DNA of 64,000 nucleotides from a virus: the IMG/VR virus record IMGVR_UViG_3300012931_000015, positions 1 to 64,000 of that record; one strand, 5' to 3'. This document shows, one piece after another, positions 3,561 through 62,668 of this stretch. The translations under genes were made by a program, and so were the position numbers. The notes under the pieces were generated by a model. That model did not search any database, was not told the origin of the DNA, and worked only from the letters and a program-made list of their open reading frames with translations. The first letter of the stretch is position 1. Each line of letters begins with the position of its first letter.

Positions 3561-4108
3561 AACAAACCTCCACTTCTAAAATTATCTAATCTTTCTTTTC
3601 TTTCTTTCCCTAATATCAATTCCCACCATTGATGCCATTCTTCTTTTGTTATTGTTTTTCCATCAATAGGACTTTTACCTATATCTAAACGTGAGTGGGA
3701 AATTCTATTAATTACTACAACATTATCTGGTTCATATTTTAAGTCTAAAAAACTTCCACGACTTTTATAGTGTGCCGGATCAATTACTTTAACTAAATTA
3801 GGTATAGCTTTACTATAAAAAATACTTAACTGTTCTTTATTTAATTTTTTTAAAAGTTGACATTCATTATTGTCTCTTTCAAAAACTATTTTTTTTACTT
3901 TTTCCCATTCTTCATCAACTTGATTCTCGAACTGTTTTTCAACTTTCCTTTGATATTTCAAATAGCATTGTTGTTGCTTGTATAACTGTTTACAATTTTT
4001 AGAAAGAAGGGTACGCCGTAAGCACGTACCCCTTTCACATAACTTTTTAAATGCTTCAAAATCAATAAACTTTTTAACATTAAAATTACTTTTTACATTT
4101 TCACACAT
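3557..4108 (-). CDS. HNH-like nuclease domain protein
   Basis: 183 residues, basic N-terminal half with a run of Cys and Gln, then VFERDNNECQLL (the usual entry of HNH nucleases: V-x-RD-x2-x-C), then DPAHYKSRG and EPDNVVVINRISHSRLD. The AH followed about 15 residues later by N and then by SH is the HNH beta-beta-alpha metal pattern, as in NinG/Rap-type and general phage HNH proteins. Given its place in a recombination operon it may be a structure-specific or Holliday-junction nuclease, but it could also be a free mobile HNH. A family search would decide. Confidence 0.6.
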   Translation of the reverse strand: MCENVKSNFNVKKFIDFEAFKKLCERGTCLRRTLLSKNCKQLYKQQQCYLKYQRKVEKQFENQVDEEWEKVKKIVFERDNNECQLLKKLNKEQLSIFYSKAIPNLVKVIDPAHYKSRGSFLDLKYEPDNVVVINRISHSRLDIGKSPIDGKTITKEEWHQWWELILGKERKERLDNFRSGGLL

Positions 4109-10117: not shown

Positions 10118-10282
10118 ATGAACATGATAGGAAATGATAAGCTTGTTATTGTAAAATCTCATGGTTCTTTTAAAGTAAAAAGAAATCCTTCCTATAAAGA
10201 AACTGGAGAATATCTATACATAGATGAATTAGATGTAGATGATTTTATTGGTTTGATACAAGAAGCAAAAGAGTTATTATAA
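10118..10282 (+). CDS. Unknown 54-residue protein
   Basis: A short open frame I found by reading: ATG at 10118 with AAAGGAAA 8 bases upstream, stop TAA at 10280-10282, four bases before the primase ATG. The peptide has a beta-rich start (KLVIVKSHGSFKVKRN) and an acidic helix at the end (ELDVDDFIGLIQEAKELL). Its tight fit between the HTH gene (16-base gap) and dnaG supports it as real. Function unknown. Confidence 0.65.
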   Translation: MNMIGNDKLVIVKSHGSFKVKRNPSYKETGEYLYIDELDVDDFIGLIQEAKELL

Positions 10283-10285
10283 ATT

Positions 10286-11443
10286 ATGATTGATGTTTTT
10301 ACAGTTTTAAATAGATTAGGTATTAAATATTCTACAACCAATTTAAAACGAAATCAGTTATGGGCTTTATGTCCTTTTCATAACGATACTAAAATTGGAT
10401 CATTTTCAATTAATATTGAAACATGGGAATATAATTGCTACTCATGTCAAACCGGAGGCAAAAGCCCTGAAAACTTTGTATCAAAATATCTTAATATTTC
10501 TTACAAAGAAGCTAAAAAATGGCTAGAAGATCAAAATCTAAGTGTTGTTAATTATGGTGATTATACAGATAATATTTTTGAAAAACAGAAAAAAGAATTA
10601 GAAGAAATTATTAAAGATGATTCTAAAAAAAATAATATTGATTTTTTACCTGATGCTGATAAACTCGAAAAACTTTTTGCGGATAAGTTTTATTATTTGA
10701 AAAGTCATAATATAAATCAAATATTTATTGATACTTTTAAATGGTTTTTTTGTACTTCTGGATATTACAAAGATTTTATAATTATTCCAATTTATTATAA
10801 TAAGCGTCTTGTAACTTTTGAAGCTAGAAAATTATTAGAATATGAAAAATTATGTGAGTATTATGATGAAAGATTTTATGATATAAAAGATCAGTTTGAT
10901 GAATTAAAAGAAAGATTTGAAAATGAAAATTTTAAAATAGTAAATAAAGATAATAAAAAAATGTTATTGAAAAATGATGAAAGTTTTTTTGTAGAAGATA
11001 AAAATAAATTTTTTATAATTAAATATTTGTTGATGCCTAAAGTTTTATACCCGACTGGCTCTACAATAAAAGAATATATTTATAATCGGGATAAACTCGA
11101 TAACTCAAAAACTTTACTTTTAGTTGAAAGTAGTAGTAGTGTTAGTAATATTTGGAATAATGTAAGTGAAAATGTTACTTGCGTATTCGGAGCAAAAATA
11201 TCTGATATTCAAATAAAGCTTTTAGGTAATTTTGAAAATATAATTTTTTATCCTGACATAGATGAAGCCGGACTAATTTTAACTGAAAAGCTTATGCGAT
11301 TTTGTTTAAGCTGTATAAGTGTTGTAGAAGTTGAAAAAGTTGAAACTGCTAAAAAAGAAGATTTATTAAAACAAGCAGAACCTATCGGAAAGTTTGTATT
11401 TAGAAAATTAAGAGAAATATATAAAAGTAAAAAAGATGAATGA
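10286..11443 (+). CDS. dnaG: DnaG-type primase
   Basis: 385 residues. The CHC2 zinc-binding domain is at the start: CPFH (C29, H32) and CYSC (C51, C54), with GSFSI between as in DnaG. The Toprim domain lies near residues 275-335: LLLVESSSS with the catalytic glutamate, and FYPDIDEAG with the DxD metal pair. It is much shorter than bacterial DnaG (about 600) because the C-terminal helicase-binding domain is missing, as in many phage primases. It should make RNA primers for lagging-strand synthesis, working with the DnaC-like loader encoded further on. The TnpB element at 11454 begins just after its stop. Confidence 0.9.
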   Translation: MIDVFTVLNRLGIKYSTTNLKRNQLWALCPFHNDTKIGSFSINIETWEYNCYSCQTGGKSPENFVSKYLNISYKEAKKWLEDQNLSVVNYGDYTDNIFEKQKKELEEIIKDDSKKNNIDFLPDADKLEKLFADKFYYLKSHNINQIFIDTFKWFFCTSGYYKDFIIIPIYYNKRLVTFEARKLLEYEKLCEYYDERFYDIKDQFDELKERFENENFKIVNKDNKKMLLKNDESFFVEDKNKFFIIKYLLMPKVLYPTGSTIKEYIYNRDKLDNSKTLLLVESSSSVSNIWNNVSENVTCVFGAKISDIQIKLLGNFENIIFYPDIDEAGLILTEKLMRFCLSCISVVEVEKVETAKKEDLLKQAEPIGKFVFRKLREIYKSKKDE

Positions 11444-11453
11444 TTTAATAATT

Positions 11454-12800
11454 TTAGGTAACTATATATAATAAAGCACTAAATAATATATAATAAAGAC
11501 TTTTTATATTATTTGTTACTAATAATATTATGGAAAATATGAAATTAGTTGAGAGACACAAAATATTAAAAGATAACCCCAACTGGAAAAAACTAGATTA
11601 TTTTTCTTTTATTTCAAAAAATTTATATAATCAAGCATTATTTTATATAAAACAAACTTATTTAGAGACCGGAAAATATTTAAGATATAATGCAGTAGAA
11701 AAATACTTAAGAAAAGAGAATAACGAAAATTATAAAATACTTCCAAATAATACAAGTCAACAGATTTTAATGCTTTTAGATAAAAATATTAAATCATTTT
11801 TTCAGTTACTAAAAAAATATAAAAAAAATAAGAAATCTTTAAATGGATGCCCCAAATTTCCAAAATATAAAGATAAGGAAAAAGGTAGGAACATACTAAT
11901 TTTTACTTCTAATCAGTTTAGATTGAAAGATACTTTTATTCATTTTCCTAAAAAAATGAATTTAAAACCAATAAAAACAAAAGTTAAAGAAAATATAAAA
12001 CAAGTTAGAATTATTCCAAATTCATCTTGTTATGTTATAGAAATAGTTTATGAATATAAAAAGGAGGATAAAAATTTAAGTAAAGATAATTATATGAGTA
12101 TTGATTTAGGTGTTAATAATTTGTGTGCTATAATAACTAATCAACCTGAGTTAAAACCAATTTTGATTAATGGAAAACAAATTAAATCTTTTAATGCTTA
12201 TTTTAATAAAAAATTATCAAAAGAAAAATCTCAATTAAAAAAGAACCATAATAAGGATACATCTAAAAAAGTTCAGAGAATGTATTTATATCGAGAGAAC
12301 TGGATTAGTAATTACTTGCATCATGTTTCTAAAATTATTATTCAATATTGTATTGACAATAGCATAAAAAATATAATTATAGGAAAAAATAAAGAGTGGA
12401 AAACTAATTTAAATATTGGAAAAGTTAATAATCAAAAGTTTGTAATGATTCCTTATGATAAATTGATTAAACAAATTCAATATAAATCTGAAAAAATTGG
12501 CATTAATGTAATTATTCAAGAAGAGAGTTATACTTCAAAAATAGATCATTTAGTTTTTGAAGAAATGAAACATCAAAAAAAATATTTAGGAAAGAGAATA
12601 AAACGAGGTTTATTTCAGAGTTCAACTGGAAAAGCAATAAATGCAGATGTAAATGGTTCTGTTGGAATTTTAAGAAAAGTAATCGGAGATTCTTTTGTAA
12701 AAAAGATATTCGATATAGGATTTGGGTATAATCCAGTTAAAATTAATTTTAACGAATATAGAAATTTTGTTTTAGGGCAAAAAAGTATATAGTTACCTAA
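11454..12800 (+). mobile_element. Solo-TnpB transposable element with 15-bp terminal inverted repeats
   Basis: The tnpB gene is framed by TTAGGTAACTATATA at 11454-11468 and its exact reverse complement at 12786-12800. Inside the left end a perfect 10-bp stem (11481-11490 with 11505-11514) forms a subterminal hairpin. The left end continues as AAAGCACTAAA, a sequence also seen at 19457 and 25791. There is no tnpA. IS200/IS605-type elements normally lack terminal inverted repeats, so the boundaries are a proposal. The promoter at 12807 lies just outside. Confidence 0.6.
11530..12792 (+). CDS. tnpB: TnpB RNA-guided nuclease, zinc-ribbon-less type
   Basis: 420 residues. RuvC-like motifs: MSIDLGVNN (D192), GKNKEWK (E289 as the second acidic residue, the form seen in one TnpB branch) and INADVNGS (D373). 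The usual C-x2-C zinc ribbon is absent; in its place is EESYTSK followed by KRIKRGLF, also typical of that branch. N-terminal residues 1-180 form the wedge/REC-like region. TnpB proteins use an omegaRNA copied from the element right end to cut DNA beside a short target motif, keeping the element in place. The stop codon lies inside the right terminal repeat. The ATG has no Shine-Dalgarno; a TACTAATA box ends 5 bases before it. Confidence 0.88.
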   Translation: MENMKLVERHKILKDNPNWKKLDYFSFISKNLYNQALFYIKQTYLETGKYLRYNAVEKYLRKENNENYKILPNNTSQQILMLLDKNIKSFFQLLKKYKKNKKSLNGCPKFPKYKDKEKGRNILIFTSNQFRLKDTFIHFPKKMNLKPIKTKVKENIKQVRIIPNSSCYVIEIVYEYKKEDKNLSKDNYMSIDLGVNNLCAIITNQPELKPILINGKQIKSFNAYFNKKLSKEKSQLKKNHNKDTSKKVQRMYLYRENWISNYLHHVSKIIIQYCIDNSIKNIIIGKNKEWKTNLNIGKVNNQKFVMIPYDKLIKQIQYKSEKIGINVIIQEESYTSKIDHLVFEEMKHQKKYLGKRIKRGLFQSSTGKAINADVNGSVGILRKVIGDSFVKKIFDIGFGYNPVKINFNEYRNFVLGQKSI

Positions 12801-13807: not shown

Positions 13808-14209
13808 ATGAAAGAAAAGAGATGGACTACAAGTAATAAATCTATATATAATATAGGGTATCATTTAATTTGGTGTCCAAAATATAGACGAAAAGTTCTA
13901 ACTGGGGAAATAGAAACAAAATTAAGAGAATTATTAAAAGAGAAATCAAAAGAATTAAATGTGGAAATAAAAACTTTGGAAATTATGCCAAACCATATCC
14001 ATCTATTTGTTAAAGCTACTCCTGTTGATAGCCCACATTTTATAGTGCAACAATTAAAAGGATATACTTCTAGGGTATTGAGAAATGAGTTTAAAGAATT
14101 GAAAAGTAAACTCCCTACACTTTGGACTCGAAGCTATTATTGTGAGTCAGTGGGTCATATATCTGAAAATATTGTTAAAAAATATATCGAGGATCAAAAA
14201 AATAAATGA
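13808..14209 (+). CDS. tnpA: IS200/IS605-type Y1 transposase TnpA
   Basis: 133 residues, the normal size. HUH motif NHIHLF (H63, H65) and the catalytic tyrosine Y126 in NIVKKYIEDQ are both present, as are the family segments YHLIWCPKYRR and QQLKGYTSR. It cuts and rejoins single-stranded element ends during excision and insertion, acting on lagging-strand template. All residues needed for activity are intact. Overlaps tnpB by ATGA. Confidence 0.96.
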   Translation: MKEKRWTTSNKSIYNIGYHLIWCPKYRRKVLTGEIETKLRELLKEKSKELNVEIKTLEIMPNHIHLFVKATPVDSPHFIVQQLKGYTSRVLRNEFKELKSKLPTLWTRSYYCESVGHISENIVKKYIEDQKNK

Positions 14210-15327
14210 AAACTTATTGTTATAAATTATATAATAATAAAAATCTCAAATATTTAAATAATCAAATAAATATAGCCGGAAATATTTATAATTATTGTAT
14301 AAATATGTATAAAATGTATTATAAGTTATATGGTAAATCATTAAATATTTTTCAACTACAAAAACATTTAACTAAAAAGAAAAAATATTTTAAATACTGG
14401 AATGAATTAAACTCTCAAACTATTCAAGATATAACAGATAGAATAGGCAGAGCTTATCAGTTATTTTTTAGAAATCTAAAACATAAAATAAAAACTGCCC
14501 CACCTTCTTTTAAAAAATCTAAAAAATATAAATCTATTACATTAAAACAAACAGGGTATAAATTATTAGAAAATAATAAAATTAAAATACAAAATAAAAT
14601 ATTTAAATATTCAAAAAGTAGAGACATACAAGGTAATATTAAAATAGTAACAATTAAACGAGACAATTTAGGAGGTTTTTATATATATATTGTAACTGAT
14701 TTTGTTGATTCAAAACCTACCATGACGGGTAAAAGTGCAGGTTGTGATTTTGGATTAAAAACTTTTTTAACATTATCGGACAATATTAAAATAGAATCAC
14801 CTTTGTTTTATAAACAATCACAAAAAAAATTAAAGAAATCTAGTCAGTCGTTATCATCAAAAAAGAAAGGAAGTAATAATAGAAAAAAAGCTATATTAAA
14901 TTTTGCTAGAATTCACCAAAAAATATATAATAAAAGAAAAGATCATCATTTTAAATTAGCAAAAGAATTAACCCAAGATTATGATTATCTATTTTTTGAA
15001 ACTCTTAATTTAAAAGCAATGCAAAGATTATGGGGTAAAAAAATAAGTGATTTAGGGTTTTATAGTTTTTTAAAAATACTTGAATCACAGGGTAATAAAT
15101 ATAATTGTAAAATACATTCTATTGAAAGATTTTTTCCATCTTCAAAACTTTGTTCAAAATGCGGGCAAATTAAAAAAGATTTAAAATTATCAGATAGAAT
15201 TTATAAATGTGATTGTGGATTAGAAATTGATAGAGATTTAAATGCATCTCTAAACATATTAAGAGAAGGGGCATCTTCTCTTGGAGTAGAATTTGTAAGA
15301 CCAGCGATAGTTGGCAAATTTTGTTGA
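14206..15327 (+). CDS. tnpB: TnpB RNA-guided nuclease of the IS605-type element
   Basis: 373 residues. RuvC-I D181 (AGCDFGLK), RuvC-II E265 (LFFETLNL), zinc ribbon CSKC/CDCG (C316, C319, C335, C337) and RuvC-III D344 (DRDLNAS) are all present, so the nuclease should be active. The omegaRNA scaffold is expected from the 3' end of this gene plus the right-end hairpin, with the guide taken from sequence right of 15356. Residues 308-348 are nearly identical to those of the otherwise divergent TnpB at 54075, down to the nucleotide level. Confidence 0.95.
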   Translation: MKTYCYKLYNNKNLKYLNNQINIAGNIYNYCINMYKMYYKLYGKSLNIFQLQKHLTKKKKYFKYWNELNSQTIQDITDRIGRAYQLFFRNLKHKIKTAPPSFKKSKKYKSITLKQTGYKLLENNKIKIQNKIFKYSKSRDIQGNIKIVTIKRDNLGGFYIYIVTDFVDSKPTMTGKSAGCDFGLKTFLTLSDNIKIESPLFYKQSQKKLKKSSQSLSSKKKGSNNRKKAILNFARIHQKIYNKRKDHHFKLAKELTQDYDYLFFETLNLKAMQRLWGKKISDLGFYSFLKILESQGNKYNCKIHSIERFFPSSKLCSKCGQIKKDLKLSDRIYKCDCGLEIDRDLNASLNILREGASSLGVEFVRPAIVGKFC

Positions 15328-20716: not shown

Positions 20717-20851
20717 CTACTTTTTTACAGTTTTATCAGGCTTAATACTCAATAAAGCCCTTAAAGTATTGTTAAAATTTGTTTTTATTTTAATCTTTTC
20801 CTCGTATTTTGACTTATTTTTATCTTCTTTATTAGTATCAATATTTTTCAT
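20717..20851 (-). CDS. 44-residue accessory protein coupled to the transposase
   Basis: Found by reading downstream of the transposase: the stop TGA (20848-20850) and the start ATG (20849-20851) overlap as ATGA. The product is basic and helical (KSKYEEKIKIKTNFNNTLRA, LLSIKPDKTVKK). I recall that small Lys-rich ORFs often follow IS1595/ISXO2-type transposases, which fits, but I cannot check it here. The 183 bases further left (20534-20716) hold no gene that I can see. Confidence 0.55.
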   Translation of the reverse strand: MKNIDTNKEDKNKSKYEEKIKIKTNFNNTLRALLSIKPDKTVKK

Positions 20852-21792
20852 TTACCGATTAATCCTTTGTAGCTTAATCTACCATAACATTTTGAAAGCA
20901 ATAATTCAAACTTTTCATTAGAATTTAATTCCATGTTATTGTATCTAAAAGCTAAAGTATTCAAATATCTGTTTATATGTTTTTCACTCATCAAGTGGTA
21001 AATTCCTATAAACATTCTTTTGAATAATGACCAGTATCCTTCAATTGTATTTGTATGAATATTACCATTAACATACTGACCCTTACTATGTTTTATAAAC
21101 TGATGCTTAAAATAAAATCCGAGATTGTTATAGCCTAACCACTCATCTGTAAATACTTCATTGCCTTTTTCGACATTATTTTTTACTTCATTCATTAAAA
21201 CTCTACTTGAAACATTATTTATTTTATAAGCTCTTACTTTTGCCGGAGAAGTTTCAGTTTTTCTCTGCATGAATCCTAAGACAGCAGTTTTTTCATCAAC
21301 ATTTCTACCTTGTGTTCCTACTATTTTTTTATCTTTATGTTTGTTTTTATTTTTACCGCCTATGTAAGTCTCATCGATCTCGACAGGCTGATTAAATTTG
21401 CTTTCAGTCTCAATAAAGTTTTCAGTAGCGTATCTTATTCGATGAGCTAAAAACCAAGCTGTCTTTTGAGTTATTTTTAAATCTTTTGATAACTGAATAC
21501 TTGAAATTCCTTTTGAATGAGTAGTTAATAAAAATATTGCCATAAACCATTTGCGGAGCGACAATCTTGTTTCTTCAAAAATAGTATTTGTTTTAACATT
21601 AAACTTTTTTAAACAGGTAGAGCATTTATAAGTTTTATGATCTTTTAACTTCCAGATTTTATGAGTGTTTCCACAATGTGGACAAACAACTCCGTCTTTC
21701 CATTTAATATTTTCGAGGTATTTATAACAATCTAATTCGGTTTTGAATGTTTCAACTAATTGTAATATGCTATTAAATCTAAAATTAAACAT
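20848..21792 (-). CDS. ISXO2/IS1595-type DDE transposase
   Basis: 314 residues from the ATG at 21792 (AGAGG 7 bases upstream); the frame is open nine codons further but without a ribosome site. N-terminal zinc ribbon CPHCG...CSTC (transposase_zn-ribbon), a helix-turn-helix (SIQLSKDLKITQKTAWFLAH), then the DDE core: VEIDETYIGGK, VFTDEWLGY and HTNTIEGYWSLFKR, where the third acidic residue is the N-x-IEG type of this family. All parts look intact. IS1595 terminal repeats could not be located by eye. Confidence 0.92.
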   Translation of the reverse strand: MFNFRFNSILQLVETFKTELDCYKYLENIKWKDGVVCPHCGNTHKIWKLKDHKTYKCSTCLKKFNVKTNTIFEETRLSLRKWFMAIFLLTTHSKGISSIQLSKDLKITQKTAWFLAHRIRYATENFIETESKFNQPVEIDETYIGGKNKNKHKDKKIVGTQGRNVDEKTAVLGFMQRKTETSPAKVRAYKINNVSSRVLMNEVKNNVEKGNEVFTDEWLGYNNLGFYFKHQFIKHSKGQYVNGNIHTNTIEGYWSLFKRMFIGIYHLMSEKHINRYLNTLAFRYNNMELNSNEKFELLLSKCYGRLSYKGLIGK

Positions 21793-21836
21793 ATTTAACC
21801 TCTTTATTATAAATATCATTTTACTATTATAATCAC

Positions 21837-26163: not shown

Positions 26164-26333
26164 TTCAAACATTTGCCTTTTTTAATTACTAATAGAAAAT
26201 ATATACCTACGGAACATAGGGATTTTAAGCCTGTGGAGAAATAAACCTCTGAACTTGAAAAAGTTAAATTTTTTAGGTTTAAGTTATGTTTCTGTGAAAC
26301 AGGAAGCTCACAACTCTAGTTGTGGGTAGTTCA
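26164..26333 (+). ncRNA. Orphan omegaRNA-like right end without tnpB
   Basis: Contains GGAAGCTCACAACT-CT-AGTTGTGGGTAGTTCAC at 26302-26333 (split here for length), whose 7-bp stem (26309-26315 with 26318-26324) and GTAGTTCAC ending are typical of TnpB-element right ends and omegaRNA 3' scaffolds. Upstream 26205-26300 can form further stems (CCTACGGAACATAGG; CTGTGAAACAG). No intact tnpB precedes it. If transcribed, the guide would be the sequence right of 26333, just before the first tail-operon gene. Confidence 0.45.
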
Positions 26334-26363
26334 CTAATAAAGTGATTAATATAAGGAAATACT

Positions 26364-51856: not shown

Positions 51857-53923
51857 TTATATATTACAACAATTTAAAATTGAAAACTCTATAAGTTTCT
51901 CATTCCAGTAGTTATATTTGTTAATTTCAAACAAAATATCAAGTATTTTTTTAATTTTTTCAATTTTTGTGTTGATTGCTATGTTTTTTATGAAGGTATT
52001 TTGAGCTTTATTATAATAATTACTGTTTTGTTCCTGATTATTTCTTAAATTATCGATATTTATTTTAAATTTATAAACATCTAAAAACATTGATCTTACT
52101 TCTAGCAATAAACTTTCATTCCATTTCTCATTTAATAAGGTTGTTATATCATTACTTATAATCGCTGTTACAAGCTTTCCTATTGTTTCATTAGAATATA
52201 TTTCAAGTATTTTTGATACTTCCTGTTCTGACCATGCTTCAGCATACACACATTGTTCGAGATAACTTACGGCTTTACGAATACTATGAGTACAGTTTTG
52301 AGCTATTGTAAAAAGTCCTCCGGTTGCGTTTTCAAGATCACAGAATTCAGCGGGGTATCTTACATGTTCTTTTTCAAGAATACTATAAAGGTGTTTAAAG
52401 AGGTCTTCCCATTCAACATCTTTTAGATAGTAAGTCTGTCCTCTGTCTTTTATTGCATCAGGAACTTTTGTTTTATCCATTGAAGTAATAATAAAATAAG
52501 CATTTGGGTTATTATTTTCAAATTGTTCAAGAGCATTTTTAGAAGCTTTATGAGCCATTTCCTGATATTCAGTAATTATATATACTTTGGGTTTTTTAGA
52601 CCAAGTATAAATATTAGCATCATTTTCAAGGTCTCGCATATCATCAACTGTTAGATTGCTTGCATTTTTATTTTTTACTGTATGGCTAAATCTTTCTTCT
52701 AAAACATCTTTACATGAACTACAAGATAAGCAAGGATAACCTGTTATGGTATCTGGTTTATCACAGGTAACAGCCATTGCAATTATACGAGCAATACTAT
52801 CTTTCCCCGAATTTCCAGTTATAAATATTTTATTTTCTCGCCTTAATACAAGCATACCACTATTTACAGTAAAACAATATTCATATCCGTCTGTCGTTTT
52901 ATATTCATTAAATTTAATTTTATTTCTGTTATTACATAATGAGACTAAAATATTTTTACTAATTGATAAATTATAATAGTTTGATTTTCTTATATATATT
53001 TTATTATTAACTTTGTGTTCTTGTCCCTTTCTTTTATCCATAGATATAGTAACACGAAATCCACAAGCAGAAAAAGCAAACTGTATAAAATCTGTGGTTT
53101 CTTTGTCTGTTGTGCAAAAACTACGACTAATTACATTTTTTCTTTGTTGTTCATGCCCGTCCCATTGTAAAATGTTATCACAAATTATTTGTAATTGGTG
53201 CTGATTACAGTCGTACCAGTATTTATCAAATTTTTTTGTTATAATTGAAGCTCTTAAATAAAATCTTGTATATCCGGGCATACTTTTAAATGTTTTTTCT
53301 CTATATTCATAATTCATTTCATTTAGTAGTTTTCTCAAAGCTTCTTTTTTTCTGTCTTTTTTTAAATTAAAATAGCATATATTTGAGTTTTTCGTAAAAG
53401 CAGAATCACAAATAACAGCACACATCAGTTTTATTTCATTATCAGTTAAATTTATACCTTTACCATTATATTTAAAAGTAGTAATAAACCTGCCATGAAA
53501 ACCGCTTGCATTCTTTTCATGTTCTTCTTTTATATCTTTAAGAGTTTTTGAAAGTAATTTATCAGTTGAATTAATATAAAATACATTGTGGCTTTCACTT
53601 AAACACTGATCTAATCTAACATTTTTAAAATGCCATAAATAATCACATTTATTTTTTATATAATTTATTGGTTTAATTAATGTTGTAGACCCATCTTTAT
53701 TATATTGTAATACTAAATCATTTTCATTGTATTCTGAAATTTTTTTCCAACCATAGCCATTAAAGAATTCAGTATCTGCGTCAACACAGCCCGACCCCCC
53801 TAACAATCCTATCGTTTGAGGTATATTTTTTTCTGCAAATCTTTTTTTAAATGTTTTAACAACATGTTGTTGACCAACTATTTCATCGAGAGTTGGGGGG
53901 CGATATTTTTTATACCATTCCAT
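51857..53923 (-). CDS. dnaX: DnaX-like clamp-loader subunit containing an intein
   Basis: 688 residues precursor; the spliced product would be 362. N-extein WYKKYRPPTLDEIVGQQHVV is the universal DnaX opening. The C-extein has SGKDSIARII, the zinc module (C-x(10)-CLSCSSC), DMRDLENDANIYTWSKKPKV, ALEQFENNNPNAYFIITS and later helices. Key ATPase residues are altered: P-loop reads GGSGSGKDS, Walker B is YIITEYQ rather than IIDE, and the SRC finger reads DRG. It may thus be a delta-prime-like inactive subunit or a structural clamp-loader part. AAGGAT 9 bases before ATG; promoter at 53960. Confidence 0.88.
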   Translation of the reverse strand: MEWYKKYRPPTLDEIVGQQHVVKTFKKRFAEKNIPQTIGLLGGSGCVDADTEFFNGYGWKKISEYNENDLVLQYNKDGSTTLIKPINYIKNKCDYLWHFKNVRLDQCLSESHNVFYINSTDKLLSKTLKDIKEEHEKNASGFHGRFITTFKYNGKGINLTDNEIKLMCAVICDSAFTKNSNICYFNLKKDRKKEALRKLLNEMNYEYREKTFKSMPGYTRFYLRASIITKKFDKYWYDCNQHQLQIICDNILQWDGHEQQRKNVISRSFCTTDKETTDFIQFAFSACGFRVTISMDKRKGQEHKVNNKIYIRKSNYYNLSISKNILVSLCNNRNKIKFNEYKTTDGYEYCFTVNSGMLVLRRENKIFITGNSGKDSIARIIAMAVTCDKPDTITGYPCLSCSSCKDVLEERFSHTVKNKNASNLTVDDMRDLENDANIYTWSKKPKVYIITEYQEMAHKASKNALEQFENNNPNAYFIITSMDKTKVPDAIKDRGQTYYLKDVEWEDLFKHLYSILEKEHVRYPAEFCDLENATGGLFTIAQNCTHSIRKAVSYLEQCVYAEAWSEQEVSKILEIYSNETIGKLVTAIISNDITTLLNEKWNESLLLEVRSMFLDVYKFKINIDNLRNNQEQNSNYYNKAQNTFIKNIAINTKIEKIKKILDILFEINKYNYWNEKLIEFSILNCCNI
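52811..53788 (-). mobile_element. Intein with LAGLIDADG-type endonuclease remains, at the P-loop
   Basis: Precursor residues 46-371 (326 residues). Block A starts CVDADTEFFNGYGWKKI; the splice block near residue 100 is LDQCLSESHNVFY; the end is LVLRRENKIFITGN with Ser as the first C-extein residue. The middle shows LMCAVICDSAF and FIQFAFSACGF, degenerate LAGLIDADG (DOD) blocks. The insertion point falls exactly inside the Walker A loop (GGSG | SGKDS), a classic intein site. Splicing residues C46, N371 and S372 are intact. Confidence 0.9.
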
Positions 53924-54074: not shown

Positions 54075-55358
54075 TCATAGACAATTATTCTTGCCTATCT
54101 TATTTGTAAACGCTTCATAGAATATGCCCTTTGGATCATAAATGATTTTCTTTGGTCTTATTTCTTCTCCACGTTTGTACTCGGAATACTCTTCCGATAA
54201 ATTATTTTCAAAAAGAAAATTATTTTTTAGATTAAAACTTGCATTTAAATCTCTATCAATTTCTAATCCGCAATCACACTTATAAATTCTATCAGATAGT
54301 TTTAAGTCTTTTTTAATTTGTCCACATTTTGAGCAAAGTTTTGAAGACGGAAAAAATCTATTAACTTTGTGAATAGTTGTTCCATATTCTTTTGCTTTTT
54401 GTTCAAGCTTCATTAAAAAAGAATACCAATTAGAATTTTGAATTGATTTTGCAAGTTTTTTATTTTTTATCATTCCACTAATATTTAAATTTTCTAAACT
54501 TATAACTTGATTTTCGTTACAAAGTTTATTTGCTAAATGCCAATGGAAATGATTAATAAAATTTGTTCTATATTCAAATAATTTTGCTAATTTTAATCTA
54601 CATTTTTCCTGTCTTTTTGAATTTTCAATTTTATTTTTTTTATTTGTTGAAAATTTTCTTGATAAGTGTTTTTGTTGTTTTTTAATTTTATTTTCTATAA
54701 CTTTTAATTCATTTTTTATTCCTGTAATTTGTTCTTCATTACTACAAGTAACAAATTCTTTTAATCCAAAATCAATTCCTAAAATATTATTTGATTTTCT
54801 TATTTTTATAGAATTTTTTTCCAATTCTACTAAAATTGAAGCAAAAAACTTTCCTGTTTTTGTGTATTCAATAGTTACTGATTTCATTTTTCCTTTAAAA
54901 TTTTTATCTAATCCTTTAAATTTTATCCATCCTAGTTTTAAGAGTTTTAATTTGTTTTTTTCTAAATCTATTTCTATTGATTTTTCTCCTACTTGTGGTT
55001 CTCTGTAACTATTTTTACTTTTCTTTTTAGATTTAAATTTAGGAAAACCAACATTCTTATTTTTCTTTTTCAAATTCTTAAAAAAATTCTGATAAGCAGT
55101 ATCTAAATTTCCTCTTGCTTGTTGTAAAGCTCTTGAAGAGCCTAACTTTAAAAATTCAAATTCTTCTTTATATTCTTTTTCAGTTTTATATTTATATTTT
55201 TTTAATTCTTCTTTATTTTCTTTTAATTTTTTATAAACTTGTATTTTTTCATTTAATATTTGATTATATAAAAATCTACAGTTTCCAATTGTTTGTAAAA
55301 TTGTTTTTTGTTGAGTTTTATTTGGATATAATCTTACTTTAAATGTTTTATTATACAT
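54075..55358 (-). CDS. tnpB: TnpB RNA-guided nuclease (solo)
   Basis: 427 residues; AAGGAA 6 bases before the ATG. RuvC-I D196 (LGIDFGLK), RuvC-II E289 (VISLENLN), zinc ribbon CSKC/CDCG, RuvC-III D370 (DRDLNAS). N-terminal HTH/wedge region FKVRLYPNKTQQKTI is the IS605 OrfB type. No tnpA accompanies it and I see no right-end hairpin after the stop. Residues 334-374 are almost identical to the TnpB at 14206 while the rest is different, which suggests a past recombination. TACTAATA box at 55393. Confidence 0.95.
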   Translation of the reverse strand: MYNKTFKVRLYPNKTQQKTILQTIGNCRFLYNQILNEKIQVYKKLKENKEELKKYKYKTEKEYKEEFEFLKLGSSRALQQARGNLDTAYQNFFKNLKKKNKNVGFPKFKSKKKSKNSYREPQVGEKSIEIDLEKNKLKLLKLGWIKFKGLDKNFKGKMKSVTIEYTKTGKFFASILVELEKNSIKIRKSNNILGIDFGLKEFVTCSNEEQITGIKNELKVIENKIKKQQKHLSRKFSTNKKNKIENSKRQEKCRLKLAKLFEYRTNFINHFHWHLANKLCNENQVISLENLNISGMIKNKKLAKSIQNSNWYSFLMKLEQKAKEYGTTIHKVNRFFPSSKLCSKCGQIKKDLKLSDRIYKCDCGLEIDRDLNASFNLKNNFLFENNLSEEYSEYKRGEEIRPKKIIYDPKGIFYEAFTNKIGKNNCL

Positions 55359-58529: not shown

Positions 58530-59636
58530 CTAATTTTTATAACTTTTGTATTTTTTTAACACTTCAATTATTTTATTTTTATCATAAGTTTCAGCTACAT
58601 CTCTAAATTCATCTATCATATTTTTTAATTCTACATAATTTAAACATTTAAAATTGTGATCGCTTTCTTTTAAATACAAAAGTCTATCAAATTTAGTTTT
58701 TCCAAGATTACTTTTTTTAAGGGTCAATTCTTCTTCAAGTTTTTCACCTTCTGTTATTCCTATAGTATTTACGGGATAAGTATAACTATCATAGCCATAA
58801 AGTTTTAAAAGTTTTTTTATTATGTCAAGTATTTTAATTTGTTTACCCATATCCAGTATAAATATTTCACCTTTATCTAAAGTCAAAGATTTTATGACAA
58901 GTTTACTTGCTTCACTTATAGACATAAAAAATCTTTTCATATCAGGATGAGTAATTGTGATAGGCTCATTATTTTCTATTTGGTGCTTAAACAGAGGTAT
59001 AGCCGATCCCCTGCTTCCGATAACATTTCCAAATCTAACAATAGAAAACTTTGTTATATCTTGATTATTGTTTAATGAAAGCATTATTTTTTCAACAATA
59101 TTTTTTGTAGCCCCCATTATAGATGTTGGATTTACACTTTTATCTGTGCTTATACTTAAAAAATGTTTTACTTTATTTTCGATAGCCACTAATGCACAAT
59201 TGTAAGAACCAATAATATTCGTCTTTAAAGTTTCATCAGGAAATTTCTCGGCGAAGAAAACGTGCTTTAGGGCAGACGCATGAATGCAAATATCCGGTTT
59301 ATATTTATTCACAACATATCTTAATTTTTCTATATCTCGAATATCACCGATTATATAATCAATAATGTGTTTATGATCTACTTTCTGAATAGTATTATAA
59401 CAGCTAAACTCTCCATGAGTGAAAGATACTATTTTTTTAACAGGTAATTGTAAAAGTTGAATGAGAATTTCTGAACCTATCGAACCGGATGCCCCGGTAA
59501 TAAAAATAGTTTTGTCCTTGTAAAAATCAGATATGAGTTCAGGCTCTAGCTTTATTTCAGGTCTACCAAGAAGATCACTTTGATTACATAAAAAAGTTTC
59601 TTGATTTTTGTATTCTTTTGTGGTAATATCAGACAC
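58530..59636 (-). CDS. CapD/PseB-like UDP-sugar 4,6-dehydratase
   Basis: 368 residues starting at GTG (AAAGGAAA upstream). NAD-binding ITGASGSIGSE (46-56), HASALKHV, STDKSVNPTSIMGATKNIVE (the S and M-x3-K short form, with Met replacing Tyr as in FlaA1/PseB), RFGNVIGSRGSAIPLF, and FFMSISEASKLV. This is the cytoplasmic FlaA1/CapD class that dehydrates UDP-GlcNAc as a first step to rare sugars. N-terminal LLGRPEIKL is also typical. TACTAATA box at 59697-59704. Confidence 0.9.
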   Translation of the reverse strand: MSDITTKEYKNQETFLCNQSDLLGRPEIKLEPELISDFYKDKTIFITGASGSIGSEILIQLLQLPVKKIVSFTHGEFSCYNTIQKVDHKHIIDYIIGDIRDIEKLRYVVNKYKPDICIHASALKHVFFAEKFPDETLKTNIIGSYNCALVAIENKVKHFLSISTDKSVNPTSIMGATKNIVEKIMLSLNNNQDITKFSIVRFGNVIGSRGSAIPLFKHQIENNEPITITHPDMKRFFMSISEASKLVIKSLTLDKGEIFILDMGKQIKILDIIKKLLKLYGYDSYTYPVNTIGITEGEKLEEELTLKKSNLGKTKFDRLLYLKESDHNFKCLNYVELKNMIDEFRDVAETYDKNKIIEVLKKYKSYKN

Positions 59637-59757: not shown

Positions 59758-59817
59758 TGTAAATTATTAAAATATATTCAAATTATACTTGACTTATTTA
59801 TTTTATTTTGGTATTAT
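59758..59817 (+). promoter_or_regulatory. Duplicated promoter block, copy 2
   Basis: Matches 37011-37067 at 53 of 57 bases. TTGACT (59789-59794), 17 bases, TATTAT (59812-59817). A further TTGACT at 59730 with TAAATT at 59753 may be a tandem promoter. Drives the RNA element and the array 59962-62668. Confidence 0.75.
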
Positions 59818-59837
59818 ACTATAGTAGATTAAAAAAG

Positions 59838-59920
59838 CTAAAGGTAGAGAAACGAACGGCGTGAAATGAGAGCCCGGCAATGTGGGTAGCGCAGAAATTC
59901 TCATTAAGTCCTACTTTTAG
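59838..59920 (+). ncRNA. Compact structured RNA of unknown class in a 5' leader
   Basis: 83 nt, clearly richer in G and C than its surroundings. A 10-bp closing stem (59838-59847 with 59911-59920, one G.U), an inner 7-bp stem AATGAGA/TCTCATT (59865-59871 with 59899-59905), a 3-bp CCC/GGG hairpin inside it (59873-59875 with 59884-59886) and a possible 4-bp pseudoknot (GCGT 59859-59862 with GCGC 59889-59892). It sits between the promoter and the first gene, 41 bases before the GTG. I compared it mentally with common riboswitches, hammerhead, twister and pistol patterns and found no match. Confidence 0.55.
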
Positions 59921-59961
59921 TTTTGATTTATTATGAATACAACTAATTAAGGATAAAAACT

Positions 59962-60267
59962 GTGAAAAAAATAGTTATATGTAACAACTGCAAAAAAATA
60001 TGGATAATGCCTATTAAGAAATGTGATTGTGGATCAATTGCTTTGACTGAAACTCATTCTAGTAATGAACAATTTGCAGAAAACAAAAAAATAAATTACA
60101 AACTTGAATGTTTAAAAATACACCCTAAACTAAAAGCATCAAAAGTTAATGGAACAGCATTTTATCATATTATTACTGGTAATCAGATGTGTCATACTAC
60201 TTATTCTGGTTTTTGTGATACTATAACTGAAGCTTGGAAAAATTGCTATTTAAAATTAAAAGGATAA
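59962..60267 (+). CDS. Small protein with N-terminal zinc site
   Basis: 101 residues from the GTG at 59962 (AAGGAT 8 bases upstream). CNNC and CDCG near the start form a rubredoxin-like zinc site; the rest has GTAFYHIITGNQMCHTTYSG and a helix with a W (TITEAWKNCYLKL). Pattern like small phage restriction-alleviation proteins of the Lar/zinc type, but similarity is weak. First gene after the structured RNA. Confidence 0.6.
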   Translation: MKKIVICNNCKKIWIMPIKKCDCGSIALTETHSSNEQFAENKKINYKLECLKIHPKLKASKVNGTAFYHIITGNQMCHTTYSGFCDTITEAWKNCYLKLKG

Positions 60268-60271
60268 AATT

Positions 60272-60640
60272 ATGAACTTTGAAGATTTTAAAAATGATCC
60301 GCAAAAACTACTAAATAATTTTGTGCTGTTTGAACAAGGTATGTCTTATGATTCTAATACTTACAAAGCTATAAAAAAAATTGAAAAAATAACTAAAACA
60401 GGATTTAGAATAAGTAATTATTCTGGTTTATTTGATATACATGATGGATATTTAAAAGGAAGAAGTATAGGAGTTATAACTAATTGTAAACTTTTAACTG
60501 AAGAAGAAGTAATAAAATTAAAAGTTGAATGGACACTGAAAAAAGATATAAAAACTAAAAAGACAGAGATCGAAAATCAAATTAAAAATTTAAATGATAT
60601 TGAGAAAATAAATAAGATATTAGACATATTAAAAGGATAA
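60272..60640 (+). CDS. Unknown 122-residue protein
   Basis: AAGGAT 7 bases before ATG. FEDFKNDPQKLLNNFVLFEQ then a small beta segment (TGFRISNYSGLFDIHDG) and a helical end with heptads (KKTEIENQIKNLNDIEKINK). No family recognised. Four bases after the preceding stop. Confidence 0.6.
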   Translation: MNFEDFKNDPQKLLNNFVLFEQGMSYDSNTYKAIKKIEKITKTGFRISNYSGLFDIHDGYLKGRSIGVITNCKLLTEEEVIKLKVEWTLKKDIKTKKTEIENQIKNLNDIEKINKILDILKG

Positions 60641-60643
60641 ATT

Positions 60644-61363
60644 ATGAGTGAAGATAAATTTAAAATATCTGTTCCGGTTTCTTTAGGTAGTCATACAAAA
60701 GATACATATATTACTGTTACAATGGGAGCAGTATATAATGATAGGCAAATTGATTTTAAGACAGTATTAAAAGATGAAGTCTATAATACACTTATTGATA
60801 ATGGTTATATACCCGGATATGAAAGTAAAGACGTTGGTGCTTATGGTTCTGGTTTTTCAAAAACTATCAAAGCACCCACTTTGGAATCATTAGTAACTCG
60901 CATAAAAATTATTTACAGTCATTATGAAATAGTTAAAAAAATTAGTGAAACTCCTAAGAATAAAATATTATGTATTTCTTTTAGTTCTAAAAGCGGAGAA
61001 GCTTCTTCTAGCTGGAACGGGGTAAAAAAAGGTTTTATAACAAATATCGAGTTTAAATATTTTGTTGGATATAAAAGTGTTGTTAATTATAAAGATTATC
61101 ATGGAGAAGATAAATCTCAAATAACTTATTATAATGATAACTGTGAAATATTTAATTTAAATTATGATAAGATTGATCGTGAATACAAAATAATAGAATG
61201 GACTCAGGAAAGAGAAAACTTTATTGTCAAATTAGCTGAATCTTTTGAGACATTGGAAAATAATCTTTCAGAGTTTTTAAAAGATATTTCACAGGAAAAA
61301 TTTGATAACATAATAAATCAAATGTCTTCAATTAAATTTTTGGAGGATAATAATGGAAAATAA
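60644..61363 (+). CDS. Unknown 239-residue protein
   Basis: AAGGAT 6 bases before ATG. FKISVPVSLGSHTKDTYITV and VYNDRQIDFKTVLKDEVYNT suggest a beta-rich domain; C-terminal helices around ERENFIVKLAESFETLENNL. No family recognised. Overlaps the next gene by 11 bases. Confidence 0.6.
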   Translation: MSEDKFKISVPVSLGSHTKDTYITVTMGAVYNDRQIDFKTVLKDEVYNTLIDNGYIPGYESKDVGAYGSGFSKTIKAPTLESLVTRIKIIYSHYEIVKKISETPKNKILCISFSSKSGEASSSWNGVKKGFITNIEFKYFVGYKSVVNYKDYHGEDKSQITYYNDNCEIFNLNYDKIDREYKIIEWTQERENFIVKLAESFETLENNLSEFLKDISQEKFDNIINQMSSIKFLEDNNGK

Positions 61364-61847
61364 ATTTGATTCAGAAAACACTTATTGGAACGGAAAAGGA
61401 AAATATGAAATTCTGTTAAAAAAATTAAGTCCTTTATTACCTAGAGAAGGTTTTACTGAAAACGCCTATTTAAATTTGCTAATCCTTACAAAAAATATTT
61501 ATTATGATATTTATAATAATGGAGGATGCAACTTAGATAGCAAATATTATAAAGAAAAAATAAATGAATATGTAATGCCCTTTGCAAAAGAAACAGGTTT
61601 TAAAAAATATTTAATAAAAAAGACAAAAGATTATAATTATGAAATGTTAGAAGAATTTGTAGATAAAGTAATTTTATTTGCTTATTCACATAATGTTGAT
61701 TTTTATGGTTTTCCTTTAGGTAAAAACTTAGAGGATTTTTATGCTGTTGTAGAAGGTTTAAAATTTGAAGGACAGGAATCCAGAGCACAGGCTGTCATAT
61801 ATTTAATTGAACGTTGTAAATTAGCTGAAGAAAAAATATTAAAATAA
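61353..61847 (+). CDS. Unknown 164-residue protein
   Basis: GGAGG 7 bases before ATG, inside the preceding gene. Mostly helix; TYWNGKGKYEILLKKLSPLL and VVEGLKFEGQESRAQAVIYL. The opening NGKGKYE...L-x-P-x-x-G resembles uncharacterised phage DUFs. No enzymatic motif. Confidence 0.6.
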   Translation: MENKFDSENTYWNGKGKYEILLKKLSPLLPREGFTENAYLNLLILTKNIYYDIYNNGGCNLDSKYYKEKINEYVMPFAKETGFKKYLIKKTKDYNYEMLEEFVDKVILFAYSHNVDFYGFPLGKNLEDFYAVVEGLKFEGQESRAQAVIYLIERCKLAEEKILK

Positions 61848-61859
61848 AGGGATAACAAA

Positions 61860-62063
61860 ATGGATAGTGATACAATTAAAAAAGGAACTCTCTTACGCTA
61901 TAGTAATCATAGTGGGTATCATGTTATAGAATATGACCATGAAGAAATTGATGGAAATAGTAGCACGATGTATGGATATTGGGATGGAGGAAATGTTCTT
62001 ATAAAAAAAGAAATGTTCAGGTTTGAAGGTGTTTTACAATCAGGCTGGGAAATAATAAAATAG
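61860..62063 (+). CDS. Unknown 67-residue protein
   Basis: AAGGGAT 6 bases before ATG. Small beta-barrel-like sequence: KKGTLLRYSNHSGYHVIEYD, MYGYWDGGNVLIKKEMFRFE. The general look (KG-x-L-x-R) resembles SH3-like small proteins. No family recognised. Confidence 0.6.
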   Translation: MDSDTIKKGTLLRYSNHSGYHVIEYDHEEIDGNSSTMYGYWDGGNVLIKKEMFRFEGVLQSGWEIIK

Positions 62064-62073
62064 AGAGGTAAGC

Positions 62074-62178
62074 ATGAATCTTTTTTTAAAAATATGGAGC
62101 ATTATAAGCATAATCATTTCCATACCAGTATGTTTATTTTTTGGTTATATACTCTTAGTTGTAATGGAGGTTATATAA
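62074..62178 (+). CDS. 34-residue membrane peptide
   Basis: ATG at 62074 with AGAGGT 4 bases upstream, stop TAA at 62176-62178. MNLFLKIWSIISIIISIPVC then LFFGYILLVVMEVI: one or two short hydrophobic stretches. Its TAA overlaps the next ATG (TAATG), and its end contains the ribosome site of that gene, so coupling supports it. Confidence 0.5.
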   Translation: MNLFLKIWSIISIIISIPVCLFFGYILLVVMEVI

Positions 62179-62354
62179 TGTTAGATCAGCTTTTAAAAGA
62201 AATAAATGATTTAAAAGAAGCTAAAAATTTGCTGGATAGAATACTAACTTATTATGATATTTATGGACAGCAGATAGACAACGAAAGATTATTTAAAGAT
62301 GATTTATTAAATAAAGATTTAAGGTTATATGAAAAGTTTGATGATAGCGAATGA
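62178..62354 (+). CDS. Unknown 58-residue helical protein
   Basis: ATG at 62178 with GGAGG 8 bases upstream; the frame is open further up but that part is the membrane-peptide gene in another frame. Charged, helical (LLKEINDLKEAKNLLDRIL), ending acidic. Could form a coiled-coil dimer. No family recognised. Confidence 0.6.
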   Translation: MLDQLLKEINDLKEAKNLLDRILTYYDIYGQQIDNERLFKDDLLNKDLRLYEKFDDSE

Positions 62355-62377
62355 AACAATAAAAAAGAGGTTATAAT

Positions 62378-62668
62378 ATGTCAGAACAATTTTTAAAAGA
62401 CAGAAAAACAATTTGGGAGCAAATCGTTGAGAAGAAAGAAAAATTTATTGGGAAAATTTTAGTTGATACAGATTTTAACGTTATTTGTGAAACCAAAATT
62501 AAAGATATAACTTTAACACCTAATGGGGATAGCTACTTTTTTGCAGTAAAAGGCGAAAACTTTAATTGTGGCTTTGATATAAAAGTAGGGGGAGTTAGCT
62601 CTAGTAAAAAAGAAAACGAGATATTGCGATTCTCTACTCTTTATTCAGGTGATTTTTATATTAAATAA
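62378..62668 (+). CDS. Unknown 96-residue protein
   Basis: AGAGG 7 bases before ATG. SEQFLKDRKTIWEQIVEKKE helix, then beta strands (FIGKILVDTDFNVICETKIK, SYFFAVKGENFNCGFDIKVG). Last gene of the small-gene array. No family recognised. Confidence 0.6.
   Translation: MSEQFLKDRKTIWEQIVEKKEKFIGKILVDTDFNVICETKIKDITLTPNGDSYFFAVKGENFNCGFDIKVGGVSSSKKENEILRFSTLYSGDFYIK

Follow-up and report, generated by a model that had tools for sequence, protein, structure and literature searches.

The DNA under study, hereafter the window, is the first 64 kb (64,000 nt) of a 163,578-nt virus record (IMGVR_UViG_3300012931_000015), whose G+C content over the whole 163,578 nt is 0.261. Inside a long run of genes on the - strand, the window carries an island of seven small + strand genes (59962-62668). 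The first of them (59962-60267, +), delineated by ORF and family searches, has a GTG start, encodes 101 amino acids and was assigned to no family. It is followed by six further small ORFs (60272-62668, +), drawn from the ORF list and from PHROG matches. A Shine-Dalgarno-like sequence precedes six of the seven ORFs. PHROG matches are weak and concern only the second (phrog_9662) and third (phrog_10007) ORFs; no known function was otherwise found, and the AlphaFold model of the 101-residue first product is unusable (mean pLDDT 46). The seven-gene operon possibly resembles an independently expressed accessory cassette.

Several mobile elements are found in the same genome. Four tnpB genes are present, three in the window (11530-12792, 14206-15327, and 54075-55358) and one at genome positions 108493-109692; one tnpB is accompanied by an IS200 tnpA (13808-14209). 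An IS1595 transposase is encoded at 20848-21819. A near-identical pair of omega-RNA-like sequences was also seen. One copy, at genome positions 109600-109780 (5600-5780 of L008), follows the tnpB gene at 108493-109692, and the other, at 26200-26335 of the window, has no adjacent tnpB and is an orphan guide-RNA-like element. Finally, the translation of a clamp-loader (DnaX-like) gene (51857-53923) displays an intein-like insert within the Walker A motif (GGSG / C...GN / SGKD).

Upstream of the first small gene, a consensus scan picked out a + strand promoter-like sequence, TTGACT-N17-TATTAT with a TG before the -10 element (59789-59817; 10 of 12 matches), in a region where such sites are in no excess over chance (45 found vs. 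41.5 expected). From this match, we infer a transcription start at about 59823-59825. A structured + strand leader thus lies between a promoter match and the small-gene run, as the earlier note had proposed. The first gene itself has a Shine-Dalgarno sequence, AAGGA, at 59949-59953 (+).

Part of this leader, the segment 59838-59920, falls outside the called genes and has a G+C content of 0.458, which rises to 0.509 in an island at 59851-59905. Such G/C richness is reached by only about 0.13% of the 70-nt windows sampled from the genome, and the segment ranks among its most G/C-rich stretches, a list otherwise made up mostly of tRNAs and long genes. The description of a G/C-rich segment within A/T-rich DNA (46% vs. 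26% G+C) is therefore borne out.

On the + strand, the segment folds into a set of nested helices. P1, formed by CUAAAGGUAG (59838-59847) and CUACUUUUAG (59911-59920), does have the ten pairs of the closing stem that was formerly called perfect; nine of these are Watson-Crick and one is a G.U pair (G59843.U59915), which must be counted as a pair for the stem to deserve that word. P2 comprises seven Watson-Crick pairs between AAUGAGA (59865-59871) and UCUCAUU (59899-59905), and P3 is the hairpin GCCC-GGCAAUGU-GGGU (59872-59887), in which GCCC 59872-59875 pairs with GGGU 59884-59887. The inner 7-bp stem and the CCC/GGG hairpin recognized at first reading are both present. The computed fold further contains a small hairpin, ACG-AACGG-CGU (59852-59862), with pair probabilities of about 0.7. 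As for the crossing helix of four pairs that had been envisaged, GCGU (59859-59862) can pair with its candidate partner GCGC (59889-59892), but this helix is only suggestive because 7.7% of shuffles give one as strong. In the computed ensemble, it competes with the 3-bp ACG/CGU hairpin, of which GCGU is the 3' part. Taken alone, the 83 nt 59838-59920 are mildly unusual in stability (z -2.1; 4 of 200 shuffles as good). Among the scanned intergenic windows of the genome, the most stable 83-nt fold (-28.9 kcal/mol, 48% G+C) is found elsewhere, at genome positions 82541-82720 (18541-18720 of L006), and received neither a tRNA nor an Rfam call. A 14-nt sequence of the leader, CAGAAATTCTCATT (59892-59905), is found again about 430 nt away at 59460-59473; this copy lies in the sense strand of the divergent epimerase gene and probably arose by chance.

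Folding of a longer stretch showed that the boundaries first given to the element, 59838-59920, are too narrow: roughly half of its closing stem lies beyond them. The full closing stem has about 24-25 pairs, between 59820-59847 and 59911-59935, with a single 3-nt bulge. From its base, 59820-59833 pairs with 59922-59935; then come the bulge (59834-59836), the pair G59837.U59921, and the ten pairs of P1. Folds and a stem scan both delimit the outer strands, 59820-59837 on the 5' side, bulge included, and 59921-59935 on the 3' side (both +). In a scan with one bulge allowed, this 25-pair stem is the longest of its span on either strand of the genome; when 12 genomes with its dinucleotide composition were simulated and one strand of each was scanned, a single one yielded a stem as long. 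The full element (59821-59941) has, on the + strand, a folding energy of -32.9 kcal/mol and a z score of -4.1, with one of 200 shuffles as good. Folding of its - strand is ordinary (z -0.5) because several pairs of the closing stem are G.U pairs, valid on the + strand only, which turn into A-C mismatches on the other. Both the fold and its strand are thereby shown by calculation. The stem base is located where the extended -10 promoter should initiate transcription, so that the message would be double-stranded from its beginning.

The calculations also couple the stem to the ribosome binding site of the first gene. The junction and P1 hold an anti-Shine-Dalgarno sequence, GUCCU (59908-59912, +), and the Shine-Dalgarno sequence is computed to be unpaired at 85% with the full leader vs. 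23% without its 5' part. When the leader is trimmed progressively from its 5' end, exposure remains high for as long as the inner P1 5' strand is retained and then falls, with values of 0.71 for a start at 59835 and 0.22 for a start at 59841. The drop occurs because freed GUCCU pairs with the Shine-Dalgarno sequence. A change as large was obtained in one of 300 dinucleotide shuffles of the leader, in an exploratory test, chosen after the sequence was seen, that considered nested folding only. The intact leader strongly favors one fold, and the GTG start is computed to lie within a small hairpin whether the leader is intact or trimmed. In the calculation, P1 folding thus controls the exposure of the Shine-Dalgarno sequence, and this coupling would give the leader a concrete role, the folded state corresponding to an open ribosome site. 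Two possible leader-peptide ORFs, MRARQCG (59866-59889) and MWVAQKFSLSPTFSFDLL (59880-59936), were rejected: they lack a convincing ribosome site, they are buried in the fold, and several of their codons are rare in the phage.

Relatives of the element were searched for in several ways. In BLASTN searches against phages and plasmids, the G/C-rich island has no match beyond chance. Pattern scans with core pieces in IMG/VR and GTDB genomes returned matches that lack the surrounding stems and are mostly located in G/C-rich DNA; the most similar of them (L163) is inside a CDS of 327 amino acids. A single-sequence covariance model (R1) finds the element alone in its own genome, nothing in 28 phage records, and only chance-level scores in the tested genome pattern matches. 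Hence, no leader homologue was found in the phage, plasmid, IMG/VR or genome collections searched, a weak negative given the limited reach of exact patterns and of a model built from one sequence. For the capsid protein of the phage, matches were limited to two records, with an identity of about 25%, and no relatives of it were found in IMG/VR; this phage is too divergent for relatives to be reached via protein searches. Two of the phage contigs retrieved from IMG/VR by the pattern scans contain hammerhead-like sequences unrelated to the leader (L046, about 3685-3740 and 2853-2925; L068, about 10228-10280 and 10431-10498). Their cores are composed of CUGANGA, a stem, GAAAC, a second stem and GUC or GUA, and near each core a second site scores as a type II hammerhead, with 31 and 37.1 bits for a cut-off of 37; hammerhead pairs around a short segment are possible in both contigs.

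Comparison with known RNA classes did not provide an assignment. No Rfam 15 family fits the element at the gathering cut-off, and at E<=10 the region 59780-59980 gives chance matches only, without any ribozyme. The earlier note, which left the RNA unassigned, is borne out on this point. A tRNA or tmRNA was rejected with a covariance model and ARAGORN, a relaxed cut-off giving spurious calls only. An omega-RNA was considered for the element and rejected, as was an intrinsic terminator.

The earlier suggestion of a self-cleaving ribozyme finds no support as far as the known classes are concerned. The computed three-way junction of the leader and a GAAA after one stem recall the hammerhead, but at the place of the cleavage triplet the last base is a G, which hammerheads do not allow, and the CUGANGA core is absent from 59821-59941; the element is therefore not a hammerhead. 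The hairpin ribozyme (RF00173), known from 941 examples, has four helices and two loops (PMC8216279). In the leader, AGAA (59848-59851) faces A-GUC (59907-59910) as in loop A, in register and beside a G-C pair. In contrast, ACGA on the 3' side of AGAA cannot form helix 2 with AUUA on the 5' side of AGUC, and helices 3 and 4 are not correctly placed. Loop B of the hairpin ribozyme supplies a catalytic A and a C that pairs with G+1, and no second strand resembling GUAUAUUAC occurs in 59838-59920. The likeness to loop A is thus regarded as a coincidence. Finally, a genuine crossing helix would make the order of helices resemble that of HDV-like ribozymes; this helix has at most four pairs, vs. 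about seven for P1 of those ribozymes, and there is neither a G-G after its 3' strand nor a P1.1.

The most likely reading, to which we give about an even chance of being right, is that the element is a 5'-terminal, cis-acting structured leader of the phage small-gene operon, on the + strand. Transcription would start at the base of the 24-25-pair stem, the message would be paired from about its first base, and the compact G/C-rich domain would cap the stem. Decay pathways that depend on the 5' end of an mRNA should act poorly on such a base-paired terminus. The stem would also keep GUCCU off the Shine-Dalgarno sequence, so that the first gene would be translatable while the leader is folded and masked once the 5' strand of the stem is lost or opened. 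Protection of the transcript and a real effect on translation are what we infer from the computed structures. RppH and RNase E require single-stranded 5' ends, and 5' hairpins stabilize some mRNAs (PMC3997798). The 5' duplex fits a protective role because both enzymes rely on single-stranded termini. Indeed, like the described 5'-terminal stem-loop stabilizers of bacterial mRNAs (PMC3997798), the leader has its predicted 5' end in a duplex that should hinder RppH, RNase E and similar enzymes. Unlike them, it has a far longer stem topped by a specific G/C-rich junction domain, and its fold is coupled, in the calculation, to the Shine-Dalgarno sequence. For a plain stabilizing stem, a specific G/C-rich cap would be superfluous, which would count against the leader reading. 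The element is ordinary in kind.

Somewhat unlikely is a regulated leader, either autoregulatory or a new riboswitch, in which a protein from the phage or the host, or a small molecule, would act on the cap to alter P1 and hence the exposure of the Shine-Dalgarno sequence. A riboswitch or a protein-binding leader is possible because P1 folding, as computed, governs this exposure; as in translational riboswitches and protein-binding leaders, the closing stem competes with the pairing of the anti-Shine-Dalgarno sequence to the ribosome site, and the compact G/C-rich domain with its possible crossing helix would suit a binding function. However, the closing stem is much longer than usual in such systems, and 24-25 pairs would be hard to switch; the leader has no Rfam class, neither relatives nor a ligand or protein partner were found for it, and nothing in the downstream genes points to a metabolite. 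P1 greatly exceeds the usual length of a switching stem, which favors a stable fold over a metabolite switch. We also find it unlikely that the element, of about 116 nt, is the first of a new class of phage RNA, that is, a junction or pseudoknot RNA whose closing stem would gate the Shine-Dalgarno sequence via a protein, a ligand or cleavage.

It is doubtful that the element serves as the precursor of a small RNA, RNase III cutting the stem to free a stable capping RNA and leaving a trimmed mRNA with a masked ribosome site. RNase III needs about two helical turns of duplex; the stem offers about that much near-perfect duplex, and trimming within it alters the computed exposure of the Shine-Dalgarno sequence. 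Nevertheless, no terminator follows the element, relatives were not found, and a bulged A/U-rich duplex may be a poor substrate. Quite improbable is a chance origin, the 5' untranslated region being inert and its pairing and G/C richness fortuitous. Chance would agree with the lack of homologues, with the one simulated genome in 12 that has a stem as long, and with the modest z of -2.1 for the 83 nt alone, but it would have to bring together the long stem, the G/C island, the predicted start, the Shine-Dalgarno coupling and G.U pairs that are valid on the transcribed strand alone. Very improbable is a self-cleaving ribozyme belonging to an unrecognized class or variant. It would account for the AGAA/AGUC junction, which copies hairpin-ribozyme loop A beside a G-C pair, and for a presumed HDV-like helix order with the crossing helix, but Rfam ribozymes match nothing even at E<=10, and essential parts are missing: helix 2 and loop B for the hairpin ribozyme, CUGANGA for the hammerhead, and both P1.1 and a long P1 for HDV.

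What can be used now is the corrected boundaries and strand of the element, together with a prediction that is open to a simple reporter test. If the cap binds something, the leader would be an orphan phage regulator awaiting its partner. If the structured leader works as computed, it would provide a very A/T-rich phage with a compact, naturally occurring 5' RNA module able both to protect the message and to leave its ribosome site unmasked.
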